Assembly (NCBI GenBank): GCA_963978905.1
Contig: OZ022259.1
Span: 992,001-1,056,000, forward strand
Direction: 5' to 3'
Length of the DNA stretch: 64,000 nt
Source: Trichostrongylus colubriformis
Taxonomy: Eukaryota > Nematoda > Chromadorea > Rhabditida > Trichostrongylidae
Below are positions 1 to 22,200 of the stretch, piece after piece. Within the stretch, counting starts at the first letter, position 1, and each line of letters starts with the position of its first letter. The notes beneath the pieces were generated by a model. That model had not been told where the DNA came from. It was given only the letters and a program-made list of their open reading frames with translations, and did no database searches. The position numbers were made by a program, and so were the translations under genes.

Positions 1-199
1 GCCCGACCACAGTTGTGTATGGAGTCGAGCGAAAATTTTCTTTCCTCTACTTTCAGCTAAGCTATTGAATTGGAAAAAAGCAGAGAATATGGCGTGATAA
101 TAAAGCATTTTGGTGTTAACATACTTCAGTCGCTTTGCAACGCATCCATTTTGCACCTCACCGACATGAATCGCGCGCAGTGGTGTGCGCCAGCCAACT

Positions 200-3100
200 G
201 GTTTACGTCATCATTGGGAGTTTGGATAGTTCAGAGATAAACAGTTTTGTATTCGATTGCATCGATTGGTAACTAACGTTCACTTGCTGAGCATCCAATT
301 CCTACACATTAATGGTATAATGGTGGATCTATATCTTTATTATCATTGTTAATCGTTTTCGTAAACATGCTTCACTACTTGGAATTTTACATAGCTAGCG
401 GTCGATACCAAGTGTTGCTACCAATACCTAATTAAAATGATTCCGAGTGAACCGCTCGCTTCGCTATCACAGATATAGGTTGTATCATAATTATCAATGT
501 AGATCACAGTATCAAGAGTAGTGCACCATTTTTTGGAACGCAAGGCAATTCAGCGGTCGATGCATCGGCCAGCCATATCAGGACATAAACAAAATATGTT
601 CATCCAATGGCACTGGGCATCGGACGCTTTTGCTAAAGCGGTCGTATAGTAGTAGCAAATGATGTAAATGATTTCATCCTATCCAATCCTAATGGTTCCT
701 ATCAGCCACTGTAAGCCGCTATCAGTTTCACTGAGGCCCTGTACCCAACAATACCATTGAGTCCCCCGTACCCTACAATACCTGCAAATGTGAACATTTA
801 ACTGTTAGCCGCAAAAGCGAACCGGCCTTGGTGACATTTCCCTTCTCACGTTTCCAATCGAATATTATCAACCATTATCACTTTGGATCACCCACTATCA
901 ATGTCCCCGTCCAACCCTGCTGAACACCCATGAGTGACAGCGGCGACATTTGTCTTCTCATAATCATTATCAAATTTATCAACCATTATCGATTTGAATC
1001 ACCTACCATCGAAGTTCCTGGCCCACCCTGCTAAACATCTATGATGTGTTAGCGCTCTAGGATCAATGCGAAAAGCGAAACAAATTTGACGACGTTTGTT
1101 TTCTCATATTTATATCGAATCTTATCAACCATTATCACTTTAACTCACTCACACTAAAAGTCCCTGGCCCATCCTGCTAAACACCTATGAGTGTTAACGC
1201 TCCAGGATCAATGCCGAAAGCGAAACGGATTCGACGACTCTAGCCTTCCGACGCTCCTTTTCGAATCTTATTAATCGTTATCAATGCGGGTCACCCACCG
1301 TTAATGTCCCTGTCTCAGGACTTAGAACACCTATAAATATCGGCACTCTAGAATCAACGCGAAAGGTGAATCGAAAATGACGACATTTGCCTTCTCATGC
1401 TCCTAATCTAATCTTATCAACCGTTATCAATGCGGATCACCCACCGTTAATGTCCCTGGCACACCCTGCGAAACACCTATGAGTGTTAACGCTCCAGGAA
1501 CAATGCGAAAAGCGAAACGGATTCGACGACTCTAGCCTTTATACGTTCCTTATCGTATCTTATCAACCGTTATCAATGCGGATCACCCACCATTAGTGTC
1601 CCCGTCCCACCCCGCAAAACACCTGTTAGTATGAACGCTCCGGGACCAATGCGAAAAGCGAAACGGATTTGACGACTCTAGCCTTTTTACGTTCCTTATC
1701 GTATCTTATCAAGCGTAATCAGTGCGGGTCACCCTTCATGAATGTTCCCACCCCATCCCGCAAAACACCTGTGAGTATGAACGCTCCGGGACCAATGCGA
1801 AAAGCGAAACGGATTCGAAGACTCTAGCCTTTATACGTTCCTTATCGTATCTTATCAAGCGTTATCAATGCGGATCACCCACCATTAGTGTCCCTGTTCC
1901 ACCCCGCAAAACACCTGTTAGTATGAACGCTCCGGGACCAATGCGAAAAGCGAAACGGATTCGACGACTCTAGCCTTTATACGTTCCTTATCGTATCTTA
2001 TCAAGCGTTATCAATGCGGATCACCCACCATTAGTGTCCCTGTTCCACCCCGCAAAACACCTGTTAGTATGAACGCTCCGGGACCAATGCGAAAAGCGAA
2101 ACGGATTCGACGACTCTAGCCTTTATACGTTCCTTATCGTATCTTATCAAGCGTTATCAATGCGGATCACCCACCATTAGTGTCCCTGTTCCACCCCGCA
2201 AAACACCTGTTAGTATGAACGCTCCGGGACCAATGCGAAAAGCGAAACGGATTCGACGACTCTAGCCTTTTTACGCTCCTTATCGTATCTTATCAAGCGT
2301 AATCAGTGCGGGTCACCCTTCATGAATGTTCCCACCCCATCCCGCAAAACACCTGTGAGTATGAACGCTCCGGGACCAATGCGAAAAGCGAAACGGATTC
2401 GACGACTCTAGCCTTTATACGTTCCTTATCGTATCTTATCAAGCGTTATCAATGCGGATCACCCACCATTAGTGTCCCTGTTCCACCCCGCAAAACACCT
2501 GTTAGTATGAACGCTCCGGGACCAATGCGAAAAGCGAAACGGATTCGACGACTCTAGCCTTTATACGTTCCTTATCGTATCTTATCAAGCGTTATCAATG
2601 CGGATCACCCACCATTAGTGTCCCTGTTCCACCCCGCAAAACACCTGTTAGTATGAACGCTCCGGGACCAATGCGAAAAGCGAAACGGATTCGACGACTC
2701 TAGCCTTTTTACGCTCCTTATCGTATCTTATCAAGCGTAATCAGTGCGGGTCACCCTTCATGAATGTTCCCACCCCATCCCGCAAAACACCTGTGAGTAT
2801 GAACGCTCCGGGACCAATGCGAAAAGCGAAACGGATTCGACGACTCTAGCCTTTATACGTTCCTTATCGTATCTTATCAAGCGTTATCAATGCGGATCAC
2901 CCACCATTAGTGTCCCTGTTCCACCCCGCAAAACACCTGTTAGTATGAACGCTCCGGGACCAATGCGAAAAGCGAAACGGATTCGACGACTCTAGCCTTT
3001 TTACGCTCCTTATCGTATCTTATCAACCGTTATCAATGCGGATCACCCACCATTAGTGTCCCCGTCCCACCCCGCAAAACCCCTGTTAGTATGAACGCTC

Positions 3101-3660
3101 CGGGACCAATGCGAAAAGCGAAACGGATTCGACGACTCTAGCTTTTTTACGCTCCTTATCGTATCTTATCAAGCGTAATCAATGCGGATCACCCACCATT
3201 AGTGTCCCCTTCCCACCCCGCAAAACACCTGTTAGTATGAACGCTCCGGGACCAATGCGAAAAGCGGAACGGATTCGACGACTCTAACCTTTTTACGCTC
3301 CTTATCAAATCTTATCAACCGTTATCAAGGTGGATCACCCACCATTAATGTCCCCGTCTTACCCCGCAAAACACCCAAAAGGGTCAGCGCTCTAGGACCA
3401 ACCTGAAAGGGGAAACGACATTGGTGACATTCGCCTTTCGAGGCTCCTTATCAGCGCGTATCAGCTGCTATCACTTTCGGTCCACCACCGCCTGGGTCCC
3501 CTTACCACCCCCTATATCATTTGTAAAATTCAGCGTCCTAGCTTTGCTGCGACGCGAGATATGAATTTCGTGACAAACAGACGGACACACACACACACAC
3601 ACACACACGCACAGACATACTAAGCGAATTATATAGAGTAGGATAATAGAGGACAACACT
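200..3660 (+). repeat. R1 composite repeat, copy a (head, expanded array, tail)
   Basis: This is the first of five copies of a dispersed family in this window. The head (about 200-830) recurs at 3.8-4.3, 8.0-8.35 (inverted), 10.85-11.5 and 22.2-22.4 kb; shared strings include CTGAGCATC and GCGGTCGATACC. Tandem monomers follow, then a tail at 3440-3650 with TTTGCTGCGACGCGAGATATG, ATTTCGTGACAAACAGAC, an AC microsatellite and a final TTATATAGAGTAGGA. No coding capacity is evident. The tail resembles the 3' ends of non-LTR retrotransposons and SINEs, which is an inference. Boundaries are approximate because only other copies define them. Confidence 0.8.
1230..3330 (+). repeat. 146-bp satellite array with higher-order units
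   Basis: About 14-15 tandem copies of a 146-bp monomer, each containing CTTATCAAGCGTTATCAATG and GCGAAACGGATTCGACGAC. The period is fixed by identical sites at 1722, 2306 and 2744, which are 584 and 438 bp apart (4 and 3 monomers). A variant monomer carrying TCACCCTTCATGAATGTTCC occurs only at those three places, so the array has a higher-order pattern of one variant followed by two or three standard monomers. Divergent single monomers occur in the other R1 copies, so the array appears to have grown from an internal tandem module of R1. Confidence 0.9.
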
Positions 3661-3789
3661 ATATCCCCAAACCCTTCCCCTCTCTTAAAAATTTACTTAT
3701 TACTATTTGCTCCCATCCGTCATCCAGTTTCGATTTTTGCCCAGGCGGACAGTGTGTTTACCCACAAATCGTTTAACGCTTGGGCTGAA

Positions 3790-5236
3790 GGGTCACTACT
3801 GGGAGTTTGGATAATTCAGGGACCGATAGTTTTATATTCGATTACACCAATTGGTAGCAACTTGCTGAGCATCTAATTCTTACATGTTGATGGTAGATCC
3901 ATATACCAGGTATCAATGCTTATGTTTTTTAAAACATTCACATTATTTGGAGTTTCACATCGAGCGGTCGATACCCAGTATTGTTGCAGGTACCGCACAA
4001 GAAAATGATTCGCTTGCTTTGCTATCACAAATCTTGATCGCATCTTGATAATCCATATAGATCGCACTATCAAAAAGCGTGCACAATTATTTGGAACATT
4101 AGGCAATCAAGCGGTCGATACATCGGTATCTGATATCAACACAAACAAAATATATTATCTAGTTGTACTGACGCTTTTACATTAACGATCGCATAGTAGT
4201 AGTGAACGGTGTACCGGATTTTATCCCATCAACATCCTCTTATCAACCTCTGTAAAGCGCTATCATTAAGTCACCATTTATCCCCGTACCCCGCAATACC
4301 TGTGTGGGCATTCCACTCCCGGTCGGAAAAGCGAATCGGATCTGTGACATTTACCTTCCGACGCTCCTTATCGAATCTTATCAACCGGTATCAAATTTGG
4401 ATCATCCACCAATAATGTTCTCGGCCTATCCCGCAAAACACCTATGAGTGTCAGCGCTCTAGGATCAACCCAAAAGACGAAGCGGACTTGACGACATTTG
4501 CCTTCCGACGCTTCTTATCGAATCTTATCAACCGGTATCAAATTTGGATCACTCACCATTGATGCTCCCTCTCCACCCTGCTAACACCTATGAATGTCAG
4601 CGCTCTTGGATCGACGCGAAACGCGAAACGAATTTGTTGGCATTTGCCATTTTACGCTCCTTATCGTATCTTATCAACCGTTATCAGGTTGGCTCACCCA
4701 ATATTAATGTCCCCGCCCCATCCCGCAAAACACCCCTGTGAGTGTCAGCGATGTGGGGTCAACGCGAAAGGCGAAACGGATTCGACGACTCTAGCCTCTT
4801 TACGCTCCTTATCGAATCTTATCAACCGTTATCAGTGCGAGTCAACCACCATTGATTTCCCTGTCTCAAGACTCAGAACACCGATGGATATCGGCGGTCT
4901 GGGATCAACCCGAAAGCGAAACGAATTTGACGACATTCGCCTTCTCATGCTCCTTAACAAATCTTATCAAACATTATCAATTTGGATCACCCACCATTAA
5001 AGTCCCTGGCCCACCCTGATCAACACCTACGAGTTTTAATGCTCCAGGATCAATGCGAAAATAGTAACGGATTCGACGACTCTTGCCATTTCACGCTCCT
5101 TATCGTATCTTATCAACCGTTATCAAGTTGGCTCACCCACTATTAATGTCCCCGCCCCATCCCGCAAAACACCTATGAGTGTTAGCGCTCTACGATCAAC
5201 CCGGAAGGCGAAACGACTTTGGTGACATTCGCCTTT
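3790..5236 (+). repeat. R1 copy b, left part
   Basis: The head (3790-4300) matches copy a, for example GGGAGTTTGGATAATTCAGG and CTGAGCATCTAATTC. It is followed by about six divergent 146-bp-type monomers (4340-5220), each with CTTATCAACCG and CCCGCAAAACACC. The copy stops abruptly at the TTTAAAGGCA junction near 5236, and its tail resumes near 7083 after an insertion. No gene is visible in it. Confidence 0.8.
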
Positions 5237-7083
5237 TAAAGGCAGTGTTTGGAGAAATTCGGCAGAAAAGTAAAAGAAGTAGTGAATATGAAAGTCGAGA
5301 TGCTTACGAGGGAGGTCTTTCAGGTCATGACGCGCTTTCGGGAAACGGTTTTTTCCATTATATGGGGGTATCTACATGAAACATATAACTGACTTCCATT
5401 TTTGCTGCGCGGCCCCACAAATGCCAAAAAAGGAGAAAAGAAATTTTTTCGAAAAGGCGATTTTAACCCACTTATGGTAACGCATCCTCCTTGCAACTTT
5501 GATCATGTGCATATCCAAAGGTGTTCTTATATTTCACATCCAAAACAAAGTCAAATACGGAAAAAATGAAACCTCATCTCTACCATGTACTAAAAGTGCG
5601 TAGCAGTCTCATAACGGATCCCCGATGTATGGATGCTGTGGCGATTGGATGGCCTACTGGATACGGCGATGGACTCTTAAACGGATGAAGTGATGGGTTG
5701 GTGGTTCGAATCCCTGCACTGACGAAGTTTTGCATTTTTCTTTGCATTCACTTTTTCGTCTTCAAATATGTCTATTTATGCCGAATGACTACGATTGTCG
5801 TTGACAGCATGCCAGAATGACTCCATTTACGAATTGTCAATGAATTTTGTGATGTGATCTTTCTAGACACGAAAGGACCCGTAGCGCTCAAAATTCGCGA
5901 TTTCGCCCAAAACGAGTGTCATATTCGTGTTCAGGAGGCCAAACTACCCTTGGGGACACATTTCTATCCAATTTCAAATTTTGACCCTAACTTCGAAAAA
6001 GATGTTTGGTCATGGGTACATGGTGCGCTTTCTACTTGTAATAGAAGTGAGTAACTCACAAAATCGATGAAAATCAGTGGGATATGCACAGCATGGATGC
6101 CTATCGCTATAATTTCAGCTATCAAGCACCAAGCAAGAGAAATAGAGAGAATTTCCTAACAAGTGATATCGTCGTCTCCTTCATCGAATGTGCAGTCGAT
6201 GGTATATACCAATGCCCAGCTCAAAGTTTCGAATTTGGGTCAAAATCTCGATTGGGCTGGAAACTTACTCTTAGGGGTAGTTCGACCTCCTTAACACGAG
6301 TATCAAATCCGTTTTGCGCAAAAACGCCTCGTTCGTGTGCTATAAGCGCCGAAAGGCTAAAAAATTGGACTGTCAAACTTGCTGAAAACTGGCAATAGAG
6401 GGCAGTTCGGTGTTCTAAATGTAATTACTGCTCTTAATCTTCATATTCGAATGTTTACGAGCCCAAAAACTGAAAATCTAAATTTTGCAAAAATTTGTCC
6501 TTATTGGGAATCGAACCATCAACCCTGTTTTTGGCATTTGTAGGGCCGCGCAGCAAAAATGGACATCAGTTATATGATTCTTGTACATACCCCCATACAT
6601 GCAAAAAACATCTTTCAAAAAGCGCGTCATGAGTTGGAAGACCTTCCTCGTTAGTAACAGGACACTGAGGAAAAAACAAATGGAAATGGTCAGAGATCTG
6701 AGAAATAGGACCCTTCCCCACCGTTGATTCCCGATGTGGGCCTTCCCGTGAAGAGGCAGGTGGTCCGGACGAGATTTTCATTGACGTGTTGACATGTCCT
6801 AAACACGGAGGGATGTTCGGAAATAAGGAAGCATCCTTTTTCTGAAGTGAGCTTCAAGCCAGAACTGAGAAGGTGGGTCGCGATACCTTCTATTCCCACC
6901 CCAGCCAATCAGTCGCTAGGGGGCTGACTGAGCTATGTAAGGCGGCTGGAGCTGAAAAGCCGCCTCTGCCACAGCTCCGAGGCGCGCCTTTCGTGAGGGA
7001 TTTCGCCGCAAATAGGCTTTCCAGACCCGTAGTTTTCGAGTAAATGATTCCTTATTCCTTATCCCCCACATTACCCCTAACAT
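5237..7083. mobile_element. nested DNA element with TTTAAAG ends inserted in R1b
   Basis: The sequence on either side joins to restore R1: CATTCGCCTTT before it and GGCTCCTTATCAGCGCG after it match the uninterrupted copy a. The ends look like short inverted repeats: TTTAAAGGCAGTGTTTGG on the left, and the complement of the right end reads CTTAAAGACAATGTTAGG. Inside lies a second, longer inverted pair: 5301-5426 against 6532-6657, about 126 bp each, containing GTCATGACGCGCTTT and TTTGCTGCGCGGCCC. No transposase is recognisable, so it is non-autonomous. It may be two elements nested in each other. Confidence 0.65.
5641..5720 (+). other. tRNA-like Pol III promoter remnant
   Basis: Within the inserted element are an A-box-like TGGCCTACTGG (5650-5660) and, 43 bases further, a B box GGTTCGAATCC (5703-5713). 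The spacing suits a tRNA-derived promoter. I could not fold a complete cloverleaf, so this is a tRNA-derived or SINE-type head rather than a working tRNA gene. A further B-box-like GGTTCGATTCC lies on the opposite strand at 6507-6517. Confidence 0.4.
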
Positions 7084-7210
7084 TGTCTTTAAGGCTCCTT
7101 ATCAGCGCGTATCAGCTGCTATCACTTTCAGTCCACTACTACCCCTTATCATCCCCTATATCATTTGTAAAATTCAGCGTCCCAGCTTTGCTGCAACGCA
7201 AGATATGAAC
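7083..7210 (+). repeat. R1 copy b, displaced tail
   Basis: GGCTCCTTATCAGCGCGTATC followed by TTTGTAAAATTCAGCGTCC and CTTTGCTGCAACGCAAG is the tail module of R1, in the same orientation as the left part ending at 5236. It lacks the AC microsatellite and TATATAG end, so the copy is truncated or broken again near 7210. Confidence 0.75.
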
Positions 7211-7364
7211 AGAGGTACCTCACGAAATTCGTGAAGATTCGGAAAGACGAAGTTTGGATCCAGCATGCGCCGAGCACGTTCCAAAGCAGCCCTTTTACAT
7301 ACGATCTGTCATCGTGATGTTTCTCTGAACTACACATAAGAGCATCCAGTGTCAGGGGGCTGTA

Positions 7365-8350
7365 AGGGGATCCTAGCGGTCGTGGACCGAAAGTGATAGA
7401 AGCTGATGAGGGCTGATAGGGAGCCTTGGAATGCTGATGTTGCCGAATCCTTTCGGTCTTTTGGGTCGATCCTAGAGCGCCTACATTCACAAGTGTTTCG
7501 AGGGGTGGGACGGGCACGTTAATGTGGATGATTCTTATTTATAACACTTGATAAGATTCAATAAGGAGCGTCAAAAAACTAATGTCTTTAAACCCTTTTC
7601 CCCATTTGAGCTTATCCTAGAGCGCCGACACTCATAGGTGTTCTAGAGGATGGGACGGGCACATCAATGATGGGTGATCCAAATTGATAACGGTTGATAA
7701 GGGATGATAAGGAGCCTCAAAAGGCTGATGTCGTCCCCATTCGGGTTGGTCCTTGAGGGCCGACACTCATAGATATTTTGAAGAAAGGGACAGAGACATT
7801 GATAGTGAGCTTGATAACGGTTGATAAGATTAGATAAGGAGCGTCAAACAATTGTCGCGAAATCCGTTTCCCTGTTCTGGCTAACAATGGATGTTCACAC
7901 TCACAGGTATTACAGAGTATGGGGGCCTTAATCATGGCTTTTCGAATCTGCCATCCGGAAATGTAGAAGGGATAAAATCCGGTACACTACTTACTACTAC
8001 TATACGACTGCTGTAGGAAATACGTCTGATGCTCAGTACTATTCGGTAAACATATTTTGTTGATGTTCTGACATCTGCTGCCGATGTATCGACCGCTCAA
8101 TTGCCTAGCGTTCCAAATAATGGTGAATGTTTTTCAAAACTGCGATCTACGTAGATGATCAAGATACGATCTAGCTTTGTGATAGGAAAGCAAGCGATTA
8201 ATTCTCTCATGCAGTGCAAGCAACAATTACGGCTATCGACCGCTAGACTATGTAAAATTCCTAATAGCGGTGCATGTTTACAGAGACGATAAGCATCGAT
8301 AACTGGCATACGGATCTACCACCTATAGCAGAAAGTAGGGGCTCAGCAAA
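7365..8350 (-). repeat. R1 copy c (inverted)
   Basis: Read on the minus strand this is an R1 copy. The head lies at 7980-8350 (GGTAGATCC, GCGGTCGATAC region, AGTAGTAAGTAG near the ACTACTATACG string) and three or four monomers at 7380-7930 (GATAACGGTTGATAAG is the complement of the monomer core). It lies head-to-tail inverted relative to copies a and b. No coding sequence is seen in it. Confidence 0.75.
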
Positions 8351-13243: not shown

Positions 13244-16200
13244 TTAGCTCGAATACATCATTTCTGGGGTATATGTCAGTATGTTCCCTTGAAACTGACG
13301 GTGAACCTCGTCAAATAAATCCGTCCACATTCGATCGATTAACTGTCGAACATTATGTCCACCTACACATGAAGACAAAGCGCCACATTGTAATGCCTGA
13401 ACGAAGACGAAGAGCTCAGGCGTCGAATGAGCAGGTCGGTGGTGTGGAGATTACCTTTTCAGCAACAACCACATTGATATAAGCGTACTGCCATGGGTTC
13501 ATCACTGCTCTTGCACGTTTTTCTCGAAGTTTCTCAACCACTCCCTGTAGAAGAAACTCGCGATATATGTACCTTCAGCGACGTGATTCTGCGGCTGGCC
13601 AGATTCGATGTGGAGCGCGGCCCTACGCTCAAACGCATCCCATTGTTGAACCGTGTCCAGCAAGTCGCTATTTGGGATGCGTGCTATTAAAACAGAAAAT
13701 TCGTGTTACAGTGCCCACCAGTGCGACGCGATGAGTGCGAGCTAAGGGCGCCGTATAAGTTGGGTCCTAAAGCGATGAAGGTGCCCTGGGCCCTATCTTA
13801 GGCGTAACTGCTTCAGGACCCAAGTGCTACGACGCACGTAGCTCGCATTCCTCGCGTCGCGCGATGTATGTCGCCCGCAAATTTCCTGTCCTAATAGCCG
13901 TTACGTGAGAAAGAAAAAGACCACACCTTTATATTCACTGTATTGTTCTGGTACAATTGCCTCAGAGCAACATCGAGAGCGATGAAAACTCCTGTGCGAC
14001 CGAGGCCGGCGTGACAATGCACTAGCAAAGACGATGAGGATTGTGGCAGCTCCTAAAGATATCTAGGATTTTGGCACGACAAAATCAGAGGTCTTGTGTA
14101 GGAAACAACTCAACAGTATGAGCGTAGAAGCAAGGGGTCACGTTGAGATAATCGCTCAGTCACTTACGTAAGACTATTCTTTGATACCCTTGAGATTTCA
14201 GACACTTCTTTGCTTTACGAATAAACAATTGGGCGCTATGTACTTGAGGTGGTATCAGTGATAGCAACATGGTTTAACACGACTGATGTGACAGTAACAA
14301 GCGCAAGACACGTCAGTAAGGTGCAGGCTTGTTGCTACCTCCACGGTACATTACGCTGGTTGTGCATCATTAGAATCGGATTACGCACCTCAACAAGCAG
14401 GGCCAAGCAAGCGAGCCAGGGGGCCGCATGTGGTTGGAGCCTTAAAGGCACATTCCAGGATTACCGTGAATAGGATGAAGCGCTGAATTATAGAATGGAG
14501 GTGCTGAAAAACAGCCGACAAAGAAAAATCTGAAAAAAAATCCCCGAAAATGACAGAAATAATGTACGAGATTACCGCGTGAAAGTGAGCCATTGCAACT
14601 CCCGTTGGATGGTATCGTAAGGACTGATTGTTAGATATAACCTGTTTGCCCTCATCAACGTTTCATTCACTACTGGAATTTCTCATTTATCTCATCTTAT
14701 CGCACAATTCGCAGGCCTCATTTGCAATGTTGTTTCCACCGCTACCGGCGTCACTGCCGGCAATTCGGTCTAGAGCGGGCGGGCGTGGGGTGCTTGATGG
14801 AGTCGCGCTATCTTCTTTGGCTCTCCACGCTCCAGAACGTCTCGGTGAAGGTACAGCTTACGTGGCTCGGGTCAATCTATGACCACAGAAGGGGCTACAA
14901 TGTCACAACAATCCTGGAATGTGCCTTCAAGTAACTGCCGAGTCCTATGCCTCATTTTTGGAGCAGTTGCCCAAAATCGAAGAATATGATACAGTAGGTG
15001 AGGAATATATGTCACATAGTGTTATATGGTTCGTTTCGCCTCCGACTCAGACGAACCATTGTATGTTGCCAGCCTTTGAGGCTCATCAGTGAGTAAGGCT
15101 GGCAACATCAAATAAATGTGTAAGCGGGTGGTAACCAATTTGTTATGAAAAAGTGTATGTTAATAGCATACAACATAGGTAAGAAGTATTAAAAGGTTAT
15201 AATAAAAAAGGTAAATTTGCTGTGCTAAAAAAAAAGGTTGATGTAGGTATAATAGTCTTTTTGAAAAAGGTTGATGTTGGTATAATAGTCTTTTTGAAAA
15301 AGGCGTGGGTGCATATGATACTAAGGGAACGCTTTATAATTGGAGCGCATATGTACATTGTCTGCACCCAGGCTTTATTATTGCAGTACTTAAAGTATGG
15401 TGAAGAAAATAAAAAAGAACTAAGCTTCCCATAATCTTCCTCTCATGTTAGCAATAATCACTGCAAGATAATACTGCTACTTACACACCGCATGCTAAAC
15501 TTGCAAGAACGAAAATAGGGGAAGGTACCACAAGTTAGATGAGGAACTGGAGTAATGTGGAGGACATCAAATGTAGAACATGTATTGGCTATTCGTAGTG
15601 CTTCTGTATATATAACCGCCCCTTTATTTTTTAGAGATATGTTACTATTACTATGTGGAAATCTGTTCACTTTGAAATTAAAGTCGTCAGTTTTGTTATA
15701 TAGCCATGTGAGAACTCTTCCATTGTTGATTTCTAATGTTAGGTCGAGATAGTTTGCATAGTGATCGGAAATGTGAGTCTTTTTAAGCTCTAGTTTGTTA
15801 TCATAAATCCTTCTAAGAATAGTTTCTACTTCTAGTTCATCAAAATTGTGTACAAGAAGTAAATCATCCATATATCTAAATGGTATGAAAGTCTTACCGG
15901 TCATTAATTTAATGGTCTTTGCGTAATTAAATTCCAAAACTGACAAAGTAAGATCTGCTAATAACGGACTGAAATTGCCACCTTGTGGTACCCCTTCCTT
16001 TTGCTTGAAGATATTGTTTCCGAAAAGGCAGTAGCTGTTATCTAACAAATAGTCCGTTGAATAGAGTAAATCCTCTTTTTTGTAGTATCTATATCCATTT
16101 CTTAGCTCTTTGCCATCACTTTCCAAATACAGCTTTTACAGCTTTTCAAAATACATTGAACCCATTAGTGGCGATAAAAGCTTTGTTGGAATTTAACAGA

Positions 16201-19200
16201 TATTTAACAGTATTTTCACACTTTCCAATATATGGCTGTTTCAAGTTGGTAAACATATCTGTGAAGTCTGCTGTATAAATTTTAATATTTTTGCATCTAA
16301 TGCTACTTAGATCCTGGCTAATATTAATATTAACTATGGACCAGTAAGTTTTGATGGTCCTACTGCGATCTTCAGTAGCTTTTGCATAGTTTTTAAAATG
16401 GTTCTTAATGTAAGTGAAGATAACATGTAACTCTTTAGCTAACGGTTTAATGCTACTATTAAATGCTCCTGTGATGAATCTAAACTTTATAGGGTTTTTA
16501 TGTAGTTTAGGGAGGGCATATATATAAGGTAAATCGGCCTCTATACCAAAAGATAAATTGTTAGCTTGACAGAAAAACTTGTGCTTATTTATGATGCATT
16601 CTTTATTTTGTTCTTGTATCAGTTCATATGTATTTTTGGTATTTGTATAGTTTAGAATCCTTGTATTCGTTTCATAGTATAAGCCCATTTCCTCCATAAG
16701 TGTTAATAGGTAGTGTTTTTTACAAATAATGCCATAATTATTACCAGCTTTATCTAGAGGACAAAAAATAAACATACTTCTGTATTTTTTTACCTGTTCA
16801 CTTGAAATGTATTCACCTTTACTATCAATATTATCAACTGTTAATAGTGGTTTAACTTTACTGTGATAACTGTTATCAATATATTTTATTATAGCTCTTA
16901 TTTGCTCTTGGTTTAATTTATACCTTTGAATCAAGTATTTAACAACTTTATTGGTTAAATCCTCAAATATTTCTTTGACTTCTTTTCTACTGATTCCTTG
17001 GTCTAATCTATATTTTGTACCCTTGCTCAATAATTCTTTAAATGTTTTTTCTTCTATGATGCTGAGGTCTCCTGTAATTATATGTCCATGGTGCTCATCA
17101 ATAAATTTTTTATATTTTTCTATCTGACAGATGCAAGTCCTACACAACGTATTTTCAATCTCTTTTATGTCCGGACTTTTTAAAAAGTGGTTATAATTAA
17201 ATATCTTGCTGGATAACGTGTTTTCATACTTAAACAAAATTCTTATGGGTACATAATCTTTTTTATTATCATTCTTGCATGCTATCTCCTTAATCAGTGC
17301 TGAATTAAATATTTTATTAAATGATATTTTATCAAAAACTCTACTTCTATAATTTATTGTGATATTATGGTAAATGATATTTTCTTTTTTGTTCTCTTAT
17401 ATGTATTAAAATGAAAATGTGCTAATAAACTAAACACAAGCAACCTGTTTTTATTAGTGATTTCTGTTAAGAAGTCTTCTCTGGTAGAGAGTTTGATTAT
17501 CTTATCAATTTCAATTCTCCTTAAACTTTTGAACATTCTGTAACATTCCATTGGTTCAAGATTCCCTTCCTTTCTGACCAATTCCTGCAGTACCGTATTA
17601 TATTTGGTGCTTTTCTTGATACTTTTGCTTTTGTTGACCCCTCTGTTATCTCTTTTTTTAGTAATATTTAGCGAAAAGAAGGGGGATTGTTTTTGAATAG
17701 TTGAGTCTTGTTTAAATTAGTGATGTTTCCATATCCTTTGATGTTGTCATTGAGTCCGAAAGGTAAAGGCGTCATTAGAAGTTTTATCCAAAATAACTCC
17801 TTTTCTAAGAGGATGTTTCTATCATTTGTGCTTTCTGAATCCAGTACCGTAACAGTAATTCCTTGGTCGCAAGTGTAGAAATGTTTGTAGAGAGGGGTTT
17901 GTTTTTTATGTGTGTATATGTTATTTAAATGTTCCCCAATTCTCTCTTTAAGCTTTCTGACGGTCATACCCACATACTGTATTCCACATTTGTTACACGT
18001 GAGACAATAAATAACATTTTTTGTGTTACAGTTAGTGTTAGTACCTTTATATGTATTTATACGTAATTTTGTAACCTGTGAAATTATGTAGTTGTCGTTG
18101 TTGGTTATATTGCATGTCCTACAGACCCTATCACAATTGCAACCTTTGTTAGCATTACCAAAATGGTAAAGATAGTATTGATTGGCCTCTCCCCTTACCC
18201 TGTAGAATTTAGTATTGGTGTAGTACCCGGTTGCATTGCTTTTTGCAGTATTTTTTGACCCAAGATCTAAGCGCATGAGTGGTCCAACCCACACGCAGAG
18301 AGGAGTCATTCCCTAAGGTTTGGCAGGACTGCTGCCAGGGGGTAGCAAAGAACAAGTTATGTGCGGTCGCTCAACTCGCACGCGTTGCGGCGAGAAATCG
18401 TGTCTTAATCATCTTTACTCCGAAGCTGTCGTGTTGGTCGTGCACTCTTCTGAACAATTTTTACGTCCGGCGCTACCTTCGCCTATTCGCCTAGGCTCTC
18501 AGACAATAGAGGAACCCCCTGCCTGTTCCTTCAAGGACAAAAATATTTCGTTTGAGTGTGCAGTCTTACACAGATTTGTTCAACATTTTTCGGGATGTCC
18601 CGTCATTATGATAGCACGTACACATAATCGTGCCAATTGTTTGGATTTCAAATACGCTTGTTTCATCCGCAATCATGACTCACCCTCTCTACGATGTCGA
18701 TGATTCGTAGAGCTGTCGCAGCATACGATGCAGTAGTCACTGGCCATGGTATTGGTAAACATCCATCAGGCCACCTGAATAGTTTTGTGCATTTCTGGGG
18801 GATTCTGTAAGATGGCGACATGATTGACGCGGTTGTATCGCGGGCATGTAGTGTAAGGTGAACGTGGAAATCACTAAAAATATGATTAGCTGGAAGTGGT
18901 CTTGTTAAAAGCTTAAAAGAAATCGTCCACGGAAATTCCATGATTCCAACTCATCCATATCACTCTATGGGATACCGCACACGAGAAGAAACACGAAAAC
19001 CAAATCATCCTCATTTCAATCGAAAAAATTGAACAACTGGGAGAACAACAACTCCTCTGCTCTGGATTCACGCAGAATAACCCTCGGTTCACGGCGAGAA
19101 AAGAGTAAATTTTCGCGCCCACTGTTGATCTACTTTCCATCGTCTCCGATCATTGACAGCCGCCGCTTAGCTCCCAGAGCCATCCCGCCTCCACGGACGG

Positions 19201-22200
19201 CTGCACCTCCTTGGACGTTACTTTAACAAGCTGTACTTCAGCCGGATTCTTGTTTTCCGCATGGAACTTTGTACGTGGCCCGTAGTAAGCAAATACAACA
19301 TTAATATAGCAAGCAACTGAAGAACTCAAATTTCCGTGGACGACTTCCTTGAAGCGAGCAGAAACATCATGAAAGTAGCAGGAAGGCGTTGGAGAAAGAA
19401 CAGTTTTCGTACGATCACAGACGATTCAAGCAAACACTAACCGATAGTAACACATGTGTACGATTTCTCTATCCGGCTCGGGATCGCCTATAGGATTGGA
19501 GTATGAAATCCGTAGCTGTGTCACTCGATACACCATATCATTTGGTTTCACGGCCCGAATGCCTGGAGAAATCTGTAAACGAAGGAAGATTGGGCTATAA
19601 AAATGAACAACTCCTTGCTCTGCAATGTAGATACAGCAATTTTGTGCATCTGGTAGTTCGCACAAAATCTGCATTCCCTCATAACTTCACACCGCAACGA
19701 GCGGTGTGCAGCGCAATGCGTGCAAGTTAGGGGCACCGCGCGCACTTGGATCCCAAAGCGGTTAAACCTAGCTACGCACAGCGAACCCACTTTGCGCACC
19801 GTGGTGCGAAATCCTGTCTCAACGAGAAAGACCCCTCCTTTTTCGGTATCCGATCCTCAGAACAACATACCATCATTCTAGTATCGATACATGTGATTTT
19901 AAAAGGCATGTATGCGACAGTCTTTCCGATCTCAATCGGCCAATACTGAATCGTTTCCTTGCAAGGATCATATATTGCCGGATAAAGACGTTCTTCATGA
20001 GGGAAATTCACGGAAAGAATCCGCTCTACTTTCTCCTTAAGAGCATTATATTATACTCTACGAGCCATGAAGAACCCCGTAAGGTAGCGTACCTGCCAAA
20101 CCATACACCAAAAATCAAACACACTGCTCATTGTCGGTCCCTCACTGGCCAAATATTCACCTTGAAAAAGCGGCCCGATGCGTTGAGCATTGATCTAAAA
20201 ATTCGAGAATCATAATAAAAACTTGATGACTAAGACATCGTAAGTTGCTGTATCTACTAGAATCTCAGTGTATGTCACCGAGATGCATTTAAAGACACCG
20301 TTAGGGCAATTTTTGCAAATTGGGTGACTACGAAAGTAGAGGTGCTCAGTAATATAACAGTAGAAAAAGAACGACATAAAACGGCGAAAAAACCAAGAAA
20401 TGGGAACCCGAAATTCCCCCTCCTCTCTCTCGTCCTCTGCGTCTCTGGTCGAAGTGGACTGAAGACAGGCCAGAGTCTCAACCAGCCGGCCGCGATTGTT
20501 GTCCCGCCCCTCCACGTCGACTCCCCCGAGCGCATAACGGCATAACGGCATGACGAGTTACGGGGCCGCCCCAAGTCGCGTTTTTTTCATGCGATTTTCA
20601 CCGAATGTGGCCCTTTCTGAGGTAGAAGGTTCGTTTCAGAGAACATGTACTTCCAGATCTCAGTTTTCCCTTACCCCTAATGGTGCCTTTAAAGACAACA
20701 GAAGGGGATGATTTTGGCTTACGGTAGAACAGACGTAGTGTGGACGAGTTTAAGTGGCCGCCATTGCACAAACTCGCCAATTTGACGCCTTGGCATGGTG
20801 CCAAAATGAAATGTTTCTACTAGAAATTTGTTTCTTTTTACTTTTTACTTTTTTCTTTCTTATATTGTTTCTAGATGTACTTACATAAATGCTAATGTAG
20901 TTGGGAACGGCCACTCCATCGCGCTGGGAGTCAGGTGCTACAACTTACGTTGGCCCGCGGCCCGTCTCCTACAACGGACAACTCGGAAGGTCTGTGAAAT
21001 GATGCGAATTGGATGCGAATACACCGCAGCGATGCGCTCTTGAATCCGGGTTTTTTCACCGATTATCGCTTCTAACCTTCTGTGTTCGTTACAAGATGCT
21101 CATTTCTTTGCATCATCTTATTTTCGGATCCCTTCCGCTTCCTTTAACGACTGCACGTGTCATTACCCGACTCACAAAACGGAATGTGATCACGAATCAC
21201 GAATCCATCACAAGCTGAAGCGGCTAGGTACTCTTGGGTGGGGGTCGACAGGTCGAATTTCCGCTTGCGGCGTCGCACTCGCGGCGCCGTCAGTACGAGC
21301 CGTTGGGAATTCCGCTCATGACGCAATGGGCTGGTACCGTAAGGGACCTTCAAAGATTGCAAGTTAAAAGCTTCGGGAATTCGCCTACCTTTGAAGGTAC
21401 CTCACGGTACCAGCTCGTTGCGTCTTGAGCGGAATTCGGAACGACTCGTACTTGCCGCGGGCGGTCGCGCAGAAATTCGACCTAGCAACCCTCCACCCGG
21501 TATTCTTCAGTGGCTCAGCTGGCCACAAAAGACCTTCAGAAAAGGGAAAACTGGGGGTGTGCAATCAATGAATTTTGGCTGATATACGCATGAGGAAAAA
21601 AAGCCTTCTGCTTTCGGACATCAGTTAGGAAACCTAGGTGGTACTATAATGAGAGGGAGAAGGTGGACGCAAGGTTGGGCGCGACTTAATGAATTTCTAA
21701 GGATGACATGTCTTCAAACCAGTTTGGCTATCGCACAGTACTGCGCGCACACACAGTGAACTCATCAACTTATGAAATAGTCGATACTGACTAATCCATA
21801 TAGACAGAAGCTCTACAGCATTATACACACAGTACTGTGCGCTAGCCAAAATGGAATCTCTGAAAACATCCATCGGTGCTAACGCAATGGGAGGGGGGGG
21901 GGGGGGGGGGTGGGCACACCACAATGGACAATATTTTTACCTAAGCCTAAGGGGAGAAAGGACCTCTTCCTTCCTCCATCAAGGCTTAGGCAAAGGTATA
22001 CGCATGAATGTGCATATTGACCCCACAAGGATCTCTCCAAGATGTTTAGATAAGCAACGCTTTATAAGATGTCCCCCCCCCCCTTACTGCGATAGTACCC
22101 ATCCATCACTTCAGAGGAGCTCAGATTGCAATGGTCAAAAAATATTTTGTTGCTACTGATTTTGAGATAGATTTTGTGTTCAGTGAGCATTCAGCGCCTT

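Follow-up and report, generated by a model that had tools for sequence, protein, structure and literature searches.

We analyzed a 64,000-nt stretch of the genome of the nematode Trichostrongylus colubriformis (330.9 Mb in 52 contigs), corresponding to positions 992,001 to 1,056,000 of contig OZ022259.1 and referred to here as the window. On the minus strand of the window lies a copy of an endonuclease-first (EN-first) Penelope-like retroelement. Positions 15026–15106, 3′ of the open reading frame (ORF) and within the 3′ untranslated region (3′ UTR), are on sequence grounds a complete hammerhead ribozyme of type CSG, a non-circularly permuted form. We consider it very probable that this is a dead EN-first Penelope-like copy whose family carries a type-CSG hammerhead in its 3′ UTR. 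The parts of the copy are given below in window coordinates, with numbered loci (L) used for comparison.

14964–18346, minus strand: copy of an EN-first Penelope-like element; homology to L010, L011, L013, L017, L018, and others starts and stops there
17671–18312, minus strand: ORF piece 1, N-terminal GIY-YIG endonuclease (PF01541, E = 8.6e-7; QYVGMT, LKERIGEH)
17357–17716, minus strand: ORF piece 2, linker region with frame breaks at either end, collinear with the L010 open frame (P0001)
16149–17396, minus strand: ORF piece 3, N-terminal part of the reverse transcriptase (RT) region (LPKLHKNP, ADFTDMF), with matches elsewhere in the same genome
15461–16135, minus strand: ORF piece 4, RT palm (GVPQGGNFSP, YMDD; PF00078 (RVT_1), E = 4.4e-8), C-terminal end missing
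15564–15567, minus strand: deletion site, 286–287 bases of close copies absent (alignment gap in L009–L014 and L019)
15026–15106, minus strand: predicted type-CSG hammerhead ribozyme, 81 nt (core, stems, covariation)
15078–15094, minus strand: block C, comprising the stem I 5′ strand, the CUGAUGA core (15083–15089), and the stem II 5′ strand
15045–15059, minus strand: block S, comprising the stem III 3′ strand, GUC, and the stem I 3′ strand, with predicted cleavage between 15050 and 15049
15026–15042, minus strand: block G, comprising the stem II 3′ strand, GAAA (15034–15037), and the stem III 5′ strand
15065–15106, minus strand: helix joining stems I and II, 15095–15106 with 15065–15076 (double changes in alignments A2 and A4)

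The motifs on which the original prediction relied (QYVGMT, LKERIGEH, LPKLHKNP, GVPQGGNFSP, and YMDD) all lie on the minus strand in the claimed 5′ to 3′ order. The prediction identified the element correctly and overlooked the hammerhead in its 3′ UTR; its span of 15020–18260 is corrected here to 18346 to ~14964, on the minus strand. Its description of a copy “this complete” did not hold, as the coding region is broken into four frames, the 5′ end is truncated, and 286–287 bases are missing near 15565. The window copy is decayed and dead, with its ORF in four pieces, part of the RT end lost, and a 5′ truncation at 18346 relative to L010, L011, and L018. Its 3′ end lies at ~14964–14974, 52–62 nt beyond the ribozyme. 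The RT piece has at least 103 matches in the same genome (best 100 of 635 candidates scored), with identity from 100% down to 39%. As this piece is multi-copy and relatives hold both domains in one frame, the domain order in the window is not a matter of chance. No target-site duplications were seen by eye in the flanks inspected, and sequence searches of the PDB gave nothing below E 0.09.

The six possible hammerhead block orders were named by Eckert et al. 2023 (PMC10085705), C-S-G being one of the non-circular ones. As described there, type CSG comprises two similar sequences, exclusively metagenomic and with modest covariation, in which a helix brings stems I and II together. In vitro cleavage was reported for both RNAs, with rates of 0.004 and 0.026 per min, and the authors rated the evidence for biological relevance as weaker because two similar sequences offer few covariation events (PMC10085705). 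In the literature searched, whose text did not extend to Cervera 2014, Lunse 2017, or Craig 2021, “type-CSG” and “hammerhead” occurred together only in PMC10085705, and no paper joining hammerhead, retrotransposon, and Naiad was found. The Rfam 15 models for hammerhead types I, II, and III gave no match at curated scores in the window or in 10 loci.

We then examined how far the structure is kept across the genome. When 44 loci (L009–L052, 211,342 bases) were scanned for each of the six block orders, CSG was the only one to appear, with 27 matches, and 10 first-order Markov surrogates gave none; the four canonical Penelope-like loci L049–L052 contained no type-CSG ribozyme. A strict count of CSG alone over 284,699 bases gave 35 matches, while every one of 20 Markov surrogates gave 0; the 35 are not all independent, since L001–L008 overlap other loci. 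Among the 40 stretches L009–L048, of which L027 and L028 are units of one array, the core and stems are kept in 34 (33 at script thresholds, plus L034 once extended as L120). The S-G block pattern matched 374 times genome-wide and its reversed control 0 times. Forty of these places were inspected (the first 43 in listing order minus 3 already sampled); block C and the stems are intact in 28, and the other 12 are truncated or mutated. The cleavage-site nucleotide is C in 22 of the 40, A in 16, and U in 2, with G excluded by design from both the pattern and the scripts. In the distant copies L020, L021, and L023, the coding part is 66%–72% alike, while the 3′ UTR stretch near 15026–15134 is still 78%–83% alike. 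A second, weaker match to the ribozyme model was seen at 168–268 (+) of L017, on the strand opposite the element (34.8 bits, E = 1.1e-4). The ribozyme pattern search of viral contigs gave 0 matches, and no related elements were found in viral contigs.

Covariation was assessed in two alignments. In A2 (MAFFT, 23 rows), 18 of 30 pairs show double changes, a level reached by 0 of 500 shuffles, and the covariation score is 0.315 versus 0.162 when shuffled. The joining helix, in which 9 of 12 pairs change on both sides, is the only unbiased part of A2, as all rows except L026 were picked by script for pairing in stems I–III. The rows of A4 come from searching 67 of 99 sources with R1, a model that contains the joining helix and stem III as aligned in A2. 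That search left out L001–L008, L028, L096–L098, and 20 of the 40 loci L053–L092, among them the visibly truncated L055, L062, L075, L077, L086, and L092. It yielded 61 matches, 46 of them distinct, and none in L034, L043, L049–L052, L093, or L094. In the 46 distinct rows of A4, 93.5% of 1366 cells are paired and 22 of 30 pairs show double changes, with a covariation score of 0.464 versus 0.171 for shuffled and 0.06–0.12 for slid alignments. All 12 pairs of the joining helix show double changes, but A4 was fitted to that helix and to stem III, which leaves only stems I and II as unbiased evidence; these lie outside R1 and are paired in 88.6% and 97.4% of cells.

It could be argued that the CSG order arises by chance, or that two strong hairpins produce it as an alignment artefact. 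Taken by themselves, these hairpins are very stable (z −6.3) and require no pseudoknot, and other block orders also appear at loose thresholds. However, stems I and II connect the two hairpin loops, 9 of the 23 A2 rows have double changes in one or more stem I pairs, and both stems pair in A4 though absent from its model. The strict matches likewise have no equivalent in the surrogates. We regard this explanation as highly improbable, and hold to a type-CSG hammerhead kept by the family. Several observations do count against that assignment, besides the selection of A2 and the fitting of A4. Further pair types in A2 are no more numerous than in shuffles (183 of 500). The core is changed in L020, L021, and L023 (UUGAUAA, or UUGGUAA in L021, instead of CUGAUGA), and one core position is changed in L026 (CUGAUCA) and in L040 (CCGAUGA). 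No ribozyme was found in L043, extensions included, and the cleavage-site nucleotide is G in L109, a locus detected with a different pattern. Looser thresholds, applied only to six loci on contigs outside this genome, also give one CGS and one GSC match.

The altered cores fall into recognizable sets. L020, L021, L023, and L053 form a subfamily with UUGAUAA or UUGGUAA, in which C3 and G8 are both altered and the helices are retained. In L020 and L023 the two positions read U and A. For another hammerhead, PMC11167929 reports that cleavage is partly regained in a C3G/G8C double mutant, and by analogy the U3-A8 change may be a compensated pair. The CCGAUGA core recurs in L060, L112, L113, L116, L118, and L123, which suggests a lineage with U4 changed.

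To place the family more broadly, we considered the six outside loci, which were found in bacterial metagenome-assembled genome records with A3, an alignment of 15 EN-first proteins. We infer that the contigs are mis-binned eukaryote DNA. Five of the six match both domains (query residues from 19–92 to 912–954) and L097 matches only the RT. A type-CSG hammerhead is present in three, with stems I and II again lying outside model R1. In L095 (R1 E = 2.8e-8) it follows the open frame at a distance of 531 nt, with five plus five pairs in stems I and II and one extra base. In L093 (E = 0.0024) it is ~1 kb 3′ of the frame, with stem I at four of five and stem II at five pairs. In L094 (E = 0.0082) it is ~2 kb 5′ of the frame, with five plus five pairs, and is perhaps the end of an upstream copy. 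In the larger R1 search of 67 sources, neither L093 nor L094 came below E 0.01. No CSG match was found in the ~0.7, 1.2, and 1.6 kb after the frames of L096, L097, and L098, and the Rfam hammerhead models gave no match at E up to 0.1 in any of the six loci.

Next, we examined domain order in relatives. L009–L028 are twenty 8–10 kb stretches of the same genome taken from matches to the RT piece. By pattern, a single stop-to-stop frame of 968–1014 codons carries both GIY-YIG and YMDD in L010, L011, L017, L018, L022, and L025. Profile HMMs built for this analysis add L026 and L027/L028 as EN-first single frames. By the same HMMs, 11 of 18 open frames of at least 780 codons in this genome are EN-RT, 5 are RT-EN, and 2 are RT only, some of them being one copy in two loci. 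A protein search with the L010 open frame, P0001, gave 97 proteins (the 7994 candidates sharing most words were scored), and P0001–P0098 comprise 70 EN-RT, 26 RT only, and 2 RT-EN proteins. The search with P0097, a canonical protein among those matches, found 452 proteins and listed 120; 117 of the 119 further matches listed are RT-EN and 2 are RT only. Canonical RT-EN elements coexist in the same genome at L049–L052, which were chosen among the matches of a genome search for the GIY-YIG family (at least 150 matches; best 150 of 789 candidates scored). L049 contains two canonical RT-EN frames in head-to-tail arrangement, separated by ~330 bases, and its opposite strand carries a GIY-YIG frame.

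An RT tree was built with 50 rows from 235 sequences, including 7 of the 18 frames from this genome. Rows from the P0001 search were two-domain matches of >300 RT residues (the first 14, then every fourth, plus P0096–P0098), and rows from the P0097 search were every ninth RT-EN match. The 33 EN-first and 17 EN-last rows lie on opposite sides of one branch, indicating one change of order, with a long-branch warning for P0098, P0096, and the meeting of L049/L051 with the EN-first side. The EN-first families of this genome together with P0002 form one supported group of six.

These results bear on whether the window holds a canonical Penelope rearranged to look permuted, or two elements side by side. 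The window copy is in four pieces and canonical RT-EN elements are present in the same genome, both of which would suit such an origin. However, EN-first single frames occur in L010, L011, L017, L018, L022, L025, L026, and L027, and the grouping in the RT tree argues in the same direction; we judge either event exceedingly improbable. As the original prediction had it, the endonuclease and RT belong to one element. Neither of the two outcomes named as refuting that prediction was seen: relatives hold both domains within one open frame, and in the 50-row tree the RT falls with EN-first elements and not with canonical Penelopes. The relatives of the window copy combine RT and GIY-YIG in one ORF, the mark of Penelope-like elements, but the family lacks the C-terminal endonuclease of canonical ones. 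The element is an EN-first Penelope-like element, a known kind. It is probably of the Naiad (Naiad/Chlamys) type.

Base composition was also compared. ORF GC content is 29.3%–33.6% in the EN-first loci L010, L011, L015, L017, L018, L022, and L025–L028 versus 45.5%–46.6% in the canonical loci L049–L052, and the frames on the six outside contigs have 27%–38% GC. A horizontal origin of the element, considered on account of its AT-richness, was dropped because the other EN-first frames measured, from this genome and outside, are also AT-rich; composition alone is therefore no evidence for it.

The ends of element copies were then used to ask what RNA had been copied. The L010 and L022 families have common 3′ ends ~55–60 nt past the ribozyme, and many copies lack their 5′ ends, a pattern to be expected from reverse transcription that begins at a defined 3′ region. 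Cleaved templates would leave copies ending or beginning at the cleavage site. A 13-mer from the S block, representing only some families, has 89 matches (4 for its reversed control). On contig C1, 0 of 29 such places end at the predicted site (23 continue by the S-G pattern list and 6 were read directly). Twelve of the 83 listed G-block places on C1 lack TCGTH before the site, and these 12 plus 8 from C3 made a sample of 20, of which 4 proved to have TCGTH. Most of the other 16 are mutated or cut elsewhere; at most 3 (L099, L100, and L107) might begin at the site, or 4 with L108 counted as a copy. The insertions checked derive from uncleaved RNA. A pseudo-long terminal repeat (pseudo-LTR) between the 5′ and 3′ UTRs was not found in L010 or L018, and L022 has one 27-nt repeat. 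These results, too, count against the reading of a family with a type-CSG hammerhead, for which cleavage at the predicted site is an expectation that the genomic copies do not record.

Other features of the copies were observed in passing. At C7:44562848-44588822, five RT matches of a divergent EN-first family stand at 6.18-kb spacing in a tandem array. The ribozyme is present in its units L027 and L028. Because the repeat unit seems to extend into DNA outside the element, we rejected the array as one for ribozyme processing. A conserved 5′ UTR motif shared by different families, GGCCAYACCTCTT followed 1–3 nt on by AAAAATAGG, lies near the 5′ end in L010, L018, L023 (in part), and L022, where it occurs twice, 73 bp apart. 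No Rfam RNA was found in the L010 5′ UTR at E up to 1. At 308–8001 (sense) of L022, an older copy from a related family seems to be interrupted by an EN-first one.

From these data we can postulate how the element might replicate. The element RNA would encode one EN-RT protein, which would bind the 3′ region of the RNA while its GIY-YIG domain nicks DNA, and reverse transcription would begin beyond the ribozyme on uncleaved RNA. The ribozyme would cut the sense RNA after an NUH triplet, slowly or only with protein help. Cleavage, acting on RNA that does not serve or has ceased to serve as template, might then sever the coding body from its 3′ initiation tail. The ribozyme RNA can very probably cleave in vitro. 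That it retires RNA after, or in competition with, template use is the role we find most likely, though at less than an even chance. According to PMC11167929, the hammerhead of a canonical Poseidon element of Anolis (PAc) cleaves only with protein present, unprocessed RNA is the main insertion substrate, and catalytic hammerhead mutants are without effect on insertion in vitro. Insertion from uncleaved RNA in the present family agrees with that report, and the slow rates of type CSG fit.

The hammerhead-like fold might instead be kept as a binding or initiation structure for the element protein, with self-cleavage incidental or lost. The origin of the checked copies from uncleaved RNA would be expected on this account, as would the retention of helices with a changed core in L020, L021, and L023; the indifference of PAc insertion in vitro to catalytic mutants (PMC11167929) also favors it. 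However, CUGAnGA and GAAA are kept in 34 of 40 copies, the core is kept in three outside loci of otherwise different sequence, and the core changes in L020/L023 convert C3 and G8 jointly to U and A. We consider a purely structural role unlikely.

The surroundings of the element bear out the intron location given in the original prediction. Same-strand tyrosine-phosphatase exons flank it on both sides, placing it in an intron in the sense direction:

13894–14052, minus strand: tyrosine-phosphatase exon (HCHAGLGRTGVF; PF00102 positions 168–205, E = 1.3e-9)
20057–20179, minus strand: upstream exon of the same kind of gene (PF00102 positions 42–65, E = 0.001, 19.2 bits versus a cut-off of 20.9)

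A likely third phosphatase exon (WPD region near 18773) was recognized by eye, and the 18773 region gave no Pfam match.

The permuted hammerhead in the 3′ UTR is the new part, the EN-first element itself being already of a known kind. We rate as evenly balanced the broader proposal that type-CSG hammerheads are an old hallmark of EN-first Penelope-like elements, that the published pair are pieces of such elements, and that the ribozyme acts in replication. If so, protein domains and ribozyme blocks would both be permuted in one lineage. The findings bear on the job of a ribozyme in an element that seems to copy uncleaved RNA. They also show that hammerheads of more than one architecture exist among Penelope-like elements, a point relevant to whether the ribozyme originated once or repeatedly, and that the CSG permutation escapes the Rfam models in the loci searched.

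Among known systems, the permuted Naiad/Chlamys elements resemble the window family in having an N-terminal GIY-YIG domain followed by RT in one ORF. The canonical elements L049–L052 are likewise Penelope-like with GIY-YIG, but have the endonuclease last. In both PAc and the window family, a Penelope-like element has its hammerhead close to the part of the RNA at which reverse transcription begins. However, PAc has RT-EN order, a cut site 26 bp after the start codon, and tandem pseudo-LTRs (PMC11167929), whereas the window family is EN-first with the ribozyme in the 3′ UTR. The minimal hammerheads of Penelope-like elements also lie in a non-coding part of the element; as presented in PMC7761336, they are type I (CGS) without stem III or loop contacts, whereas the window ribozyme, of the CSG order, has both a complete stem III and a joining helix. 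With the published type CSG, the family has in common the block order, core nucleotides, stems I–III, and joining helix. The published type is known from two metagenomic sequences with no context given in the consulted part of PMC10085705, whereas here type CSG occurs naturally in a retroelement, at a defined place, with hundreds of matches and strong covariation, which makes its biology testable.

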